DNA of 21,210 nucleotides from a virus: the IMG/VR virus record IMGVR_UViG_3300046360_000196, positions 1 through 21,210 of that record; one strand, written 5' to 3'. Numbering within the stretch: position 1 is the first letter of the stretch; each line of letters begins with the position of its first letter. Made by a program: the position numbers and the translations under genes. The notes beneath the pieces are model-generated. The model was not told the origin of the DNA. It saw nothing but the letters and a program-made list of their open reading frames with translations, and did no database searches. Positions 3,134-12,398 of this stretch are shown in pieces.

Positions 3134-3171
3134 TGGTCTGTGTAAAAAAGCGCTTCGTTTTACACAGACCA
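3134..3171 (+). terminator. Perfect 14-bp hairpin, likely terminator or attenuator
   Basis: Arms 3134-3147 and 3158-3171 are perfectly complementary around a 10-base loop. The hairpin lies 13 bases after the stop of the 2146 gene. Only a weak T-rich tail (GTCTTAAT) follows, so it may trim or stabilise the 3' end of the capsid mRNA rather than fully stop transcription into the gene at 3195. Confidence 0.6.
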
Positions 3172-3605: not shown

Positions 3606-3962
3606 ATGAGTGGATTTGCCGTTCGATATCCTATGTTTCAACCGGCCATGCGTTTGATCACTGCTATAAGTAATGCCCCTATAGCTATGGTAACAACCAG
3701 TTTTGATCATGATTATCTTGCTCAATTGGTCGTTCGTTTATATGTTCCGGAAGGCTGGGGTATGGTACAGGCCAATCATTTGGTGGGAATCATACTTGAA
3801 GTTCTTACTCCTACTACATTTATGATTTCCATCGATACGTCTTCATTCGATACGTTCAATTACCTTGATCCAGCTCCGTGGTATATTTCTCAATACGCCA
3901 TAGTTGTTCCGGTCGGTGAGCAAAATTCAACATTATTACAATCAACTAGAAATATTTTGTAA
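3606..3962 (+). CDS. Small virion protein with FCCH-like beta domain
   Basis: This protein of 118 residues is little more than one beta domain (about 30-83: TTSFDHDYLAQLVVRLYVPE, WGMVQANH, TPTTFMISIDTSSFDTF). That domain aligns by eye with residues 196-250 of the 2146 protein, so the two genes share a common module. ATG 3606 follows the previous stop by three bases and has no good Shine-Dalgarno site, which suggests translational coupling to the 3195 gene. A C-terminal tail (VPVGEQNSTLLQSTRNIL) matches the style of the other protein (VPFGEDTAQALSSGANIL), so the similarity continues beyond the core domain. It is likely a head or neck structural component. Confidence 0.75.
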   Translation: MSGFAVRYPMFQPAMRLITAISNAPIAMVTTSFDHDYLAQLVVRLYVPEGWGMVQANHLVGIILEVLTPTTFMISIDTSSFDTFNYLDPAPWYISQYAIVVPVGEQNSTLLQSTRNIL

Positions 3963-9264: not shown

Positions 9265-10734
9265 ATGGCTTTACAAATACTTCGACAACAAAATCCTGCT
9301 AATCAAATTGGTGAATCTTTTGGCTCTGGCCTTGGAAGTGGATTGCAGAACCTTGCTCAAATGAAATTTAATGAAATGCAACAAAGGCAATTGGGTCAAC
9401 AACTTGAAAAAGCTGGTTTTCCTGCATTATTATCTCAACTAGATCCAAGAGTTCAAGCTGCTTATTTAAGAGAATATGGGGCGAGGCAGCAAGGACAATT
9501 GGGACAATATGGCGCAAATGAACAAATAGGTCCACAACAAAATGATGACATCAGTACTCTTTTGCACAGTGTTATTTCAGGAGGACGCGGACCACAAGCT
9601 TCTCAGCAGATGCAGAATGAACTATCACCTTTACAGCAACTTCTTCAACCTCAACAACAAATGCCTTCCGCACAAAATATGCAAACTCAACAGCCCGTGC
9701 ACCAACAAAGTGGTATTGAGCATATTTTACAAGCATTGCAGCAACAATTATCAAATCAACCTAATCAACAGATTGCTCGATTAGCACTTCAACCTAATCA
9801 ACAAACTTCTGTGCCACAGCACCAAGCAGCACCAGTTCCGTCTGCTTCCATTGCTAATCCTGTTTCCAAAGAAGTTTTACCAAAAAAAGAAGAGAATGAA
9901 TCAGCAAAGAAAATAGTAGAATCATTTAAACCAGCTGATAAGAATGAACTTAAGAAACTTTCCCCGGGGGCAAAGGCAGCTGAAGAAAGTGAAGCATTTG
10001 AAAAGAAACTAAATAGTTTAAATATCTCTGACAGTATAAAAGAAGCAGCTCGTGAGAGATTAGAAAAACGACATGAAAAATTAATCAAGCAGCAAGATAA
10101 AATTGATGATGCTACTAAAGATTATTATGACGACTTGTTGAAACAAAATAAGGGTGCTATTGAGGGAGATATTCGTCTTGGTAGAATACAAGAACTGATT
10201 GATACCGGAAATCTTAATCATCCTATAACTTTTAATTTTTTAGACAAACTTGCTCACGGAATAAAAGGTGTTGGTCTTGATTTAAAAGGTGGGCTTTTAA
10301 GTCCCGAATCACAAGAACTTGAAAAACTCTCAACAGATTTCTTAAGAAATGCCAAGGATTACTTTGGGAATAGAATAACTCAGCAAGAAGTTAACATATT
10401 TCTAAAAACAATCCCCTCTTTAACGCAATCTGATGAAGGTAAAGAACGCGTGATTAGAAATATGCACCTCTTTAATGAAGTCGGAAAAACACGTTATGAG
10501 ACAGCTCAGCAAATCATAGAACGAAATAAAGGATTTAGGCCGCACGATCTTGCGCAACAAGTTGAACAACAGGTAAAACCGCTTGTAAATGATATTGCAC
10601 AACGATTTAAACGTGACATAAGAACCGCTGAATTGGTTGCCAAAAGACAAGCAGAAAATGCTTTAACCGAAAAGCATAAAAAGGAAGCGCAAGAAAGAAG
10701 AGAGAAATCAGGAATTAAGCCGCTACCTTTTTAA
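9265..10734 (+). CDS. Large Gln-rich internal virion/ejection-type protein
   Basis: This 489-residue protein starts at ATG 9265 (site AAGG). Residues 1-80 are helical with a Gly-rich start (GESFGSGLGSGLQNLAQ) and QQ-rich coiled coil. Residues 80-190 are Gln-rich low complexity. About 200-290 are highly charged helix. About 290-460 form a folded helical domain with RIQELIDTGNLNHPITFNFL, then STDFLRNAKDYFGNRITQQE, VNIFLKTIPSLTQSDEGKER and a final HDLAQQVEQQVKPLVNDIA. That domain pattern is widespread in phage proteins beside ejection genes. Together with the preceding gene it likely forms the DNA-ejection set. Its stop overlaps the convergent mini-gene by four bases. Confidence 0.7.
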   Translation: MALQILRQQNPANQIGESFGSGLGSGLQNLAQMKFNEMQQRQLGQQLEKAGFPALLSQLDPRVQAAYLREYGARQQGQLGQYGANEQIGPQQNDDISTLLHSVISGGRGPQASQQMQNELSPLQQLLQPQQQMPSAQNMQTQQPVHQQSGIEHILQALQQQLSNQPNQQIARLALQPNQQTSVPQHQAAPVPSASIANPVSKEVLPKKEENESAKKIVESFKPADKNELKKLSPGAKAAEESEAFEKKLNSLNISDSIKEAARERLEKRHEKLIKQQDKIDDATKDYYDDLLKQNKGAIEGDIRLGRIQELIDTGNLNHPITFNFLDKLAHGIKGVGLDLKGGLLSPESQELEKLSTDFLRNAKDYFGNRITQQEVNIFLKTIPSLTQSDEGKERVIRNMHLFNEVGKTRYETAQQIIERNKGFRPHDLAQQVEQQVKPLVNDIAQRFKRDIRTAELVAKRQAENALTEKHKKEAQERREKSGIKPLPF

Positions 10735-10886
10735 TCTTTGAATATGCTATTTAATGCCTTTATTGGGTTACGTATTATTTTAAACATACAGCCACAGAAA
10801 AATATAATGATAGATATTTGTATCCAGAAAAATCCGGCAGCGAGTATGAGTAGTGGTATAGCTTGTATTAATTGTATGAATCCCAT
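10731..10886 (-). CDS. Small membrane protein (holin- or toxin-like), 51-56 aa
   Basis: The minus strand encodes a short hydrophobic protein. The start at 10886 (MGFIQLIQ, 51 residues) is preferred because AAAGG lies seven bases upstream; an in-frame ATG at 10901 (MKGYSMGF, 56 residues) has no such site. A long hydrophobic span covers most of residues 2-34 (IPLLILAAGFFWIQISIIIF), enough for one long or two short membrane helices, followed by a basic tail (KIIRNPIKALNSIFKD). This is the design of small holins and of type I toxin peptides. Its stop overlaps the convergent ejection gene by four bases. It lies downstream of the regulator at 11219 on the same strand, so the two may share a transcript. 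Confidence 0.6.
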   Translation of the reverse strand: MGFIQLIQAIPLLILAAGFFWIQISIIIFFCGCMFKIIRNPIKALNSIFKD

Positions 10887-10935
10887 TGAATAACCTTTCA
10901 TTTAATAAAATAAGACCGATGAATTAAGCTTTTTA

Positions 10936-10964
10936 TTGTATAAATTTAAATTAAGAAATATAAT
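10936..10964 (+). promoter_or_regulatory. Candidate promoter for a small RNA
   Basis: TTGTAT (10936-10941), exactly 17 bases, then a perfect TATAAT (10959-10964). The expected start of transcription (about 10971) falls on the first base of the long hairpin that follows. The -35 box is poor (3/6). Confidence 0.45.
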
Positions 10965-10970
10965 GAATGT

Positions 10971-11048
10971 ATCGATGTGATAAGGATTATGCGTATTTTC
11001 CCCTGAAGAAAATTATGGATATGTAGCCCTTATCACATCGAATTTTTA
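10971..11048 (+). ncRNA. Candidate small RNA closed by its own terminator
   Basis: From the predicted start the transcript would be about 75-80 bases. Its 5' end (10972-10985) pairs perfectly over 14 bp with 11028-11041. An inner hairpin forms from 10995-11000 with 11008-11013. The outer stem is followed by a T-run (11043-11047). So 5' and 3' ends are locked together, a compact layout common in regulatory RNAs. It is antisense to the gap between the two minus-strand mini-genes and just touches the end of the regulator gene. The simpler alternative is a terminator for the upstream ejection operon and for the regulator gene. Confidence 0.4.
10972..11047 (+). terminator. Long-stem terminator downstream of the ejection genes
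   Basis: A 14-bp perfect stem (10972-10985 with 11028-11041) with a 42-base loop that itself contains a 6-bp hairpin, then a T-run (11043-11047). Whatever starts transcription upstream, + strand RNA should end here. Confidence 0.65.
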
Positions 11049-11219
11049 TTCGTATTGTTTTTGCTGTAGTACTTGTTTAGTTAGCAATCGTTCTATATAG
11101 CAGTTGAGTGTCATGCCGTTTCTGATAGCAAGTAATTGGAGTTGTTTTTTCAGCTCTTCACTTAAACGAATATTCATTTGTTTTCTGCTTATTGATTGAT
11201 TATCCTTATTTTCTTCCAT
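11046..11219 (-). CDS. Ribbon-helix-helix (Arc/MetJ-type) regulator
   Basis: This 57-residue protein starts at the ATG at 11219 with AAGGAAGG directly upstream. Residues 13-23 (KQMNIRLSEEL) form the DNA-contacting beta strand with alternating polar residues. Residues 21-34 (EELKKQLQLLAIRN) form helix A, a Gly turn follows at 35, and residues 37-53 (TLNCYIERLLTKQVLQQ) form helix B. That is the full ribbon-helix-helix fold, a dimeric DNA-binding protein used as repressor or antitoxin. The first 12 residues are a disordered tail. No toxin gene of a known family follows; the next minus gene encodes a small membrane protein. Tandem 8-base repeats in its own promoter are probable operator boxes, so autorepression is likely. 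Confidence 0.8.
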   Translation of the reverse strand: MEENKDNQSISRKQMNIRLSEELKKQLQLLAIRNGMTLNCYIERLLTKQVLQQKQYE

Positions 11220-11329: not shown

Positions 11330-11358
11330 GTAATAATTTTTATAAAAAGGATGTGATA

Positions 11359-12339
11359 ATGGCTATAAAAAGACAAAGAGGCGATGCCTACGGGCTCAGT
11401 CAACCTATATTAAGCTTATCTCCAGAGCCTATTGTTGCTCAAAGAGCGCCTAAAACCAATGATTATGCTCAATTAGGTACTATATGGCTTGATCAACCAG
11501 GAAGCACATCATATGTTTTAGTAAAAATCGTAGCCAATGTAGCAACGTGGCAATCATTTTCTGGTGATGCTGTTTTTGATGACATTACGGTTACGGGTGT
11601 ATTGACTGTTGCCGGTGATTATATACAAGATGGTGGCGTATTTCAGGTAACCACTTTAGATAACGTAGCAAATGCTATTCTCTTACAAACTAATGGTGGA
11701 ACTTCAGAGACCATTGTTATTAATGCAGGTCAAAGTACCAGTAGTAGTGCAGTAGAGATTGAAGCTGCAACTGGTGGAATTGCGCTTGTCGCGGGGAAAG
11801 CAATCGCCAATGCTATATCTCTTGATGCAACAGCTGGTGGTGTGGCCATTACAGCGGCAGATGCAATAGCTACTGCTATAGTTCTTGATGCAACAGCTGG
11901 TGGTGTAGAAATTGTTGGGGCTATTGCTGCGGCTAATGCAATCGTAATTAATGCAAGTAATGCTGCGGGTGGATTACAATTACTTACTGGTGGTGGTGAA
12001 TTATTACTTAATACCGGCGCAACAGGAAATATACTTCTAGAAGCGGCTACGTCAACGATTGCTGGTCCCGCTGAGACATTAGATGCTCGTGTTGGGTATG
12101 TAATATTTACTGGATTGACTACTGCTGCAGCTGCTGCTCAAGTTTTCACTATCACTAACGCATTTTCTTCTACTATATCTTCAATCCTTGTAACGGTAGC
12201 AAACACAGGAGCAAACGACGCACAAATGACCTGTACTCGTGTTAATCCGGGTAATGGATCATTCACGGTTACGGCATTGAATAATGGCGCTGCTTCACTT
12301 AATGGGAATGTTATCATCTCTTGGATGTTTTTAAATTAA
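11359..12339 (+). CDS. Tail fibre-type protein
   Basis: This 326-residue protein starts at ATG 11359 (MAIKRQRG) with AAAAAGG eight bases upstream; the in-frame GTG at 11353 is too close to that site. Residues 36-60 hold YAQLGTIWLDQ ... YVLVKIVANVATW, the anchor-like motif also found in the genes at 17000 and 18381. The middle is a repetitive beta region with near-identical units (SLDATAGGVAITAADAIA, then VLDATAGGVEIVGAIAAA) that should form a beta helix or trimeric shaft. The last 85 residues (from about 240, RVGYVIFTGLT to NGNVIISWMFLN) form a compact C-terminal domain common at fibre ends. It opens the host-recognition block and is closed by a long inverted repeat. Confidence 0.75.
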   Translation: MAIKRQRGDAYGLSQPILSLSPEPIVAQRAPKTNDYAQLGTIWLDQPGSTSYVLVKIVANVATWQSFSGDAVFDDITVTGVLTVAGDYIQDGGVFQVTTLDNVANAILLQTNGGTSETIVINAGQSTSSSAVEIEAATGGIALVAGKAIANAISLDATAGGVAITAADAIATAIVLDATAGGVEIVGAIAAANAIVINASNAAGGLQLLTGGGELLLNTGATGNILLEAATSTIAGPAETLDARVGYVIFTGLTTAAAAAQVFTITNAFSSTISSILVTVANTGANDAQMTCTRVNPGNGSFTVTALNNGAASLNGNVIISWMFLN

Positions 12340-12347
12340 TTATCTAA

Positions 12348-12398
12348 AAAATATGTTAGTAATTTGGTAGTATAAGTTCCAAATTACTAACATATTTT
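12348..12398. terminator. 20-bp perfect inverted repeat after the first fibre gene
   Basis: Arms 12348-12367 and 12379-12398 match perfectly over 20 bases around an 11-base loop. The stem is AT-rich, with A-run and T-run ends included in the arms, so it can act as a terminator in both directions. It lies nine bases after the fibre stop and 18 bases before the next start. Confidence 0.65.

Follow-up and report, generated by a model that had tools for sequence, protein, structure and literature searches.

A leftward cassette among late genes

The window analysed here is a whole virus record of 21,210 nt, which is probably a fragment. Its + strand carries virion genes, including those for the major head protein (PHROG 1357), other structural proteins and tail-type proteins. 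Two of these rightward genes flank the locus of interest: a late gene at 9265-10734, which encodes a 489-aa protein that is virion-associated by its position, and a late gene at 11353-12339. Between them, on the - strand, lie a 57-aa RHH protein gene (11046-11219; Pfam HicB, 32.1 bits at a cut-off of 21; PHROG Arc-like repressor) and a gene for a small membrane peptide of 51-56 aa (10731-10901), of which the start codon falls within 10886-10901 and the stop overlaps the stop of the upstream late gene by 4 nt. The two leftward genes are separated by a 145-bp gap that holds a hairpin, and we infer that they form one operon and are transcribed jointly.

Relatives were gathered via the head protein (80 loci) and via gene 9265 (72 loci). 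A leftward RHH gene follows gene 9265 in approximately 60 of the 72 syntenic relatives, amid rightward late genes, and small hydrophobic peptides usually adjoin it. Most members of the group (L015-L070, L091-L110, and L119-L188) share this arrangement, with a leftward RHH repressor-like gene and small membrane peptides flanked by rightward virion genes. The RHH proteins share only 7-28% identity with that of the window, so that the cassette is highly divergent yet positionally fixed. Searches of phage and plasmid collections with the RHH protein (tblastn) gave no matches, and BLASTP produced no alignment between the membrane peptide and its look-alike in L031, and therefore does not support homology of these two peptides. 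The RHH cassette is conserved in place, and the hairpin is not conserved. The more useful result of this analysis is the RHH-membrane peptide cassette, conserved across an uncultured phage group.

The hairpin, its T-run and the promoter-like boxes

The gap contains an inverted repeat of 14 perfect pairs, with a 5' arm TCGATGTGATAAGG at 10972-10985, a 3' arm CCTTATCACATCGA at 11028-11041, and a loop of 42 nt (10986-11027), in which a further helix of 9 pairs is predicted for the + strand RNA, so that the terminal loop shrinks to 18 nt. The stem-loop spans 70 nt in total, and on the + strand it is directly followed by the T-run ATTTTTATT (11042-11050), which on the - strand corresponds to the RHH stop codon and the bases beyond it. 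A perfect 14-bp stem with a partner arm leading into a T-run had been pointed out in an earlier note on this DNA, and this description is confirmed: the + strand RNA from 10971 to 11048 folds at -27.5 kcal/mol (z = -6.6). Perfect arms of at least 14 within 80 nt occur three times in the window, as compared to 0.04 times per shuffled window, and the stem is far beyond chance. RNA of the - strand forms the same hairpin at -22.8 kcal/mol (z -5.1), with no T-run after the - strand stem. Two other perfect hairpins in the window, at 3134-3171 (14 bp, loop 10) and 12348-12398 (20 bp, loop 11), are located right after the stops of virion genes and have no clear T-runs; relatives hold similar intergenic hairpins of unrelated sequence.

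The earlier note had proposed a covariance-model search, and at the gathering score no Rfam family matched the hairpin. Matches at relaxed thresholds, which are miRNA and snoRNA stems with an animal miRNA model as the best (24.4 of 75 bits), were dismissed as chance. The two arms were not found elsewhere in the viral contig collection, and comparison of the DNA of the region with 40 records gave only short chance matches, with the proviso for both searches that near-identical records may be left out. Moreover, none of the syntenic relatives has a hairpin of similar size directly after the 3' end of its RHH gene, and no close DNA relatives usable for covariation were found. The hairpin sequence itself recurs in none of the relatives.

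Upstream of the stem lie promoter-like boxes on the + strand (10936-10964), consisting of TTGTAT (10936-10941), a 17-nt spacer and TATAAT (10959-10964), with a predicted start at approximately 10971. The perfect TATAAT at 17 bases from a TTG-type box is therefore present as the earlier note had described it; the start, which was said to coincide exactly with the stem, precedes it by one base, since the stem runs from 10972. The boxes match the consensus at 9 of 12 positions (3/6 in the -35 box) and an extended -10 is absent, which makes a weak promoter match that is near chance in this AT-rich flank. When the 70-nt flank (82% AT) is shuffled with its dinucleotides preserved, a promoter of 9/12 with its start at most 3 nt from the stem arises in 7% of cases, and in 1.9% when a perfect -10 is also required, while 12.7% of plain flank shuffles match when placement within 5 nt on either side is allowed. 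Promoter, RNA and terminator had been said to fit together to the base; they do align within one base, but 2-13% of AT-rich shuffles reproduce this alignment. Across the window the same promoter rule gives 39 matches on the + strand and 35 on the - strand, 13 per strand having a perfect TATAAT. The promoter part of the locus is accordingly weak and not clearly beyond chance.

In the relatives, 19 of the 51 regions upstream of the RHH gene contain a sigma-70 promoter of at least 10/12, against 3.4 expected, and many of these have a perfect TTGACA. Judged by these sequences, the host appears to rely on sigma-70-type promoters, and the likely promoters of the phage group look better than the TTGTAT boxes, tending to a perfect or near-perfect TTGACA. 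In L133, L134, and L140, which are the same as or close to the phages L020, L024, and L027, a palindrome TGTACAC-N3-GTGTACA precedes the RHH start by about 25 bases and is a likely operator.

Proposed termination and the alternatives

The most likely, and also the commonest, explanation for such a structure is a terminator-like function. Our preferred reading is that the hairpin is an atypical, long-loop intrinsic terminator that is read from the + strand and insulates the RHH gene, for which we estimate a probability of about 0.5. Late transcripts that read rightward past the end of gene 9265-10734 would run antisense through the membrane peptide gene; in the + strand RNA the 14-bp stem would then form and, together with the U-tract encoded by ATTTTTATT, would release the polymerase just before antisense transcription of the RHH gene, which would thereby be insulated within the late gene block. 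Both the termination at the hairpin and the insulation of the RHH gene are presumed here. If the hairpin does act in this manner, it is ordinary plumbing that keeps the leftward regulatory cassette apart from the surrounding late genes.

The stretch after gene 9265 was scanned in 49 regions, including the window, for hairpins of -12 kcal/mol or better that are followed by T-rich DNA. These were present on the + strand in 41% of the regions, as compared to 27% on the - strand and 10% in shuffles, and the hairpin plus T-run of the window is the most stable among the 49. Stricter stems (perfect, at least 8 bp, loop of at most 12) were found in 6 of 50 regions on the + strand and in 2 of 50 on the - strand, where 0.15 and 0.10 were expected. 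In L119, the nearest relative (48% in gene 9265), a hairpin at 3837-3864, GCTGTGTTG...CAACACAGC followed by CTCTTTTATATTTTT, lies just past the membrane peptide gene and thus in the same slot, and a similar terminator-like hairpin occupies this slot beyond the membrane peptide gene in L121. The flanks upstream of the terminator-like hairpins of the relatives, including those of L119 and L121, contain no promoter above chance. A plain terminator predicts no promoter, and + strand hairpins that lack a placed promoter therefore favour termination of rightward transcripts before the RHH gene. The argument that the placement of a promoter sets the unit apart from a plain terminator depends on a placement that is near chance in the window and that the terminator-like hairpins of the relatives do not show.

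Compared with intrinsic (Rho-independent) terminators as defined by TransTermHP-type rules, the hairpin is alike in having a stable stem beyond chance, a T-rich tract directly after the stem from 11042 onwards, and a position downstream of a gene block. It differs in being located inside a leftward gene pair and not directly after the late gene, and in its size: canonical intrinsic terminators have loops of 3-13 nt with a median of 4 and stem-loops of up to 59 nt (PMC12207403), whereas the loop here is 42 or 18 nt and the stem-loop 70 nt. Because its long loop departs from these limits, the hairpin is labelled terminator-like rather than counted among the canonical terminators; a consensus terminator scanner did not call it. 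Further points that weigh against termination are that the other two long hairpins of the window lack a T-run, so that such stems need not terminate, that the contrast between the strands (41% versus 27%) is modest, and that many of the hairpins in relatives are closer to the late-gene stop than that of the window.

A processing or stability element in the leftward mRNA, which would separate the expression of the RHH and membrane peptide genes, possibly as an RNase III site or as a barrier to 3' exonucleases, is an unlikely but tangible alternative. In the - strand RNA the hairpin, which folds stably in that orientation as well, begins 4 nt past the RHH stop codon and between the two leftward genes, and long perfect hairpins are habitual in this phage group, where 57 of the 63 hairpins of at least 12 bp are intergenic, with loops of up to 57 and many without T-runs. 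Placement directly after a stop codon was rejected as a special feature, however, because random placement within the same short gaps brings hairpins equally near to stop codons; the relatives have no counterpart of this size behind their RHH genes, and the joint transcription of both genes is putative.

We consider it rather improbable that the boxes at 10936-10964 serve as a dedicated promoter for a small RNA, roughly 75 nt long, that ends at the T-run of the hairpin and acts as a trans or antisense regulator like sar of phage P22, perhaps by binding of its 3' arm to the gene 11353 ribosome-binding site. In lambda, OOP is encoded opposite the 3' end of a regulator gene and has a long overlap with cII. 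The candidate RNA is similar to OOP in size and in this position, but differs in that it would overlap the RHH gene by a few bases only. OOP RNA measures 77 nt and sar antisense RNA 68/69 nt (PMC12197685), and sar is located in the arc-ant intergenic region, arc being an RHH gene (PMC7968456). The candidate shares with sar (immunity I, 'ant moron') a unit of about 70 nt that lies, in the opposite orientation, between an RHH repressor gene and the partner gene of its operon, in this case a putative operon, as well as the insertion of the cassette among late genes (PMC7968456, PMC2629481, PMC12197685). The alignment of promoter-like boxes, stem and T-run also speaks for such an RNA, as does the arc-sar-ant-like location (PMC7968456), and the pairing of the 3' arm with the ribosome-binding site of gene 11353, at -15.2 kcal/mol, is the best of 23 leaders. 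Against this, 8% of shuffles reach the same pairing energy, so that the pairing was rejected as proof of a small RNA; both arms would be locked within the 14-bp stem; the promoter is weak and within chance; and neither conservation nor an Rfam family at the gathering score was found for the candidate. Unlike sar, moreover, an RNA of 10971-11048 misses the ribosome-binding site of the operon partner, the start of which lies at 10886-10901; this partner is a membrane peptide and not an antirepressor, no resemblance to sar in sequence is apparent, and the unit of the window is a predicted transcript. The self-contained small RNA unit of the earlier note is therefore borne out as to its hairpin and T-run and is not established as a transcript, for which it depends on the weak promoter match. 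If the locus did encode a small RNA, an antisense RNA inside an RHH cassette would be known from a second, independent case besides P22. The more elaborate proposal, in which a sar-like RNA, antisense or acting in trans, opposite the RHH-membrane peptide operon links the cassette to the next late gene via GATGTGATAA at its ribosome-binding site in widespread uncultured phages, is more doubtful still.

Part of the arm sequence recurs at that ribosome-binding site. The decamer TGTGATAA occurs exactly three times in the 21 kb, all within 400 bases: in both arms (10974-10983 and 11030-11039) and at the gene 11353 ribosome-binding site (11350-11359), where the longer motif GATGTGATAATG (11350-11361, + strand) matches at 11 of 12 positions. 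The local probability of the third copy is approximately 0.003, estimated post hoc. This confinement of the triple to the locus would fit a DNA element in which the RHH protein, or some other regulator, binds GATGTGATAA sites, two of which form the arms while the third covers the start of gene 11353, and 9-mers in three copies occur in 7 of 55 regions, compared with 2 in shuffles. We nevertheless deem such an element very improbable. RHH operators usually overlap the RHH promoter, and the candidate operator in L133, L134, and L140, just upstream of the RHH gene, is unlike the GATGTGATAA sites. Furthermore, a widely spaced inverted repeat leaves the T-run unexplained.

Host hints and inserts in the head-protein gene

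The head protein was detected in 2 of the 39 searched genomes of one bacterial family (L090 and L191-L196), the first of which is labelled as a Parachlamydiaceae MAG. This hints at hosts of the tailed phage group among environmental chlamydiae or cells that accompany them, with binning error as a possible source of the association. The head-protein gene is interrupted in both genomes (L090 and L196). Searches with Rfam gave no match to the inserts of either genome at the gathering score. In L090 (3815-5895 of PLSG01000101.1) a single 1.1-kb insert carries an oppositely oriented LAGLIDADG gene, and in L196 (G064:C388, from 34500) there are several inserts that share repeated end motifs and look like group I introns.
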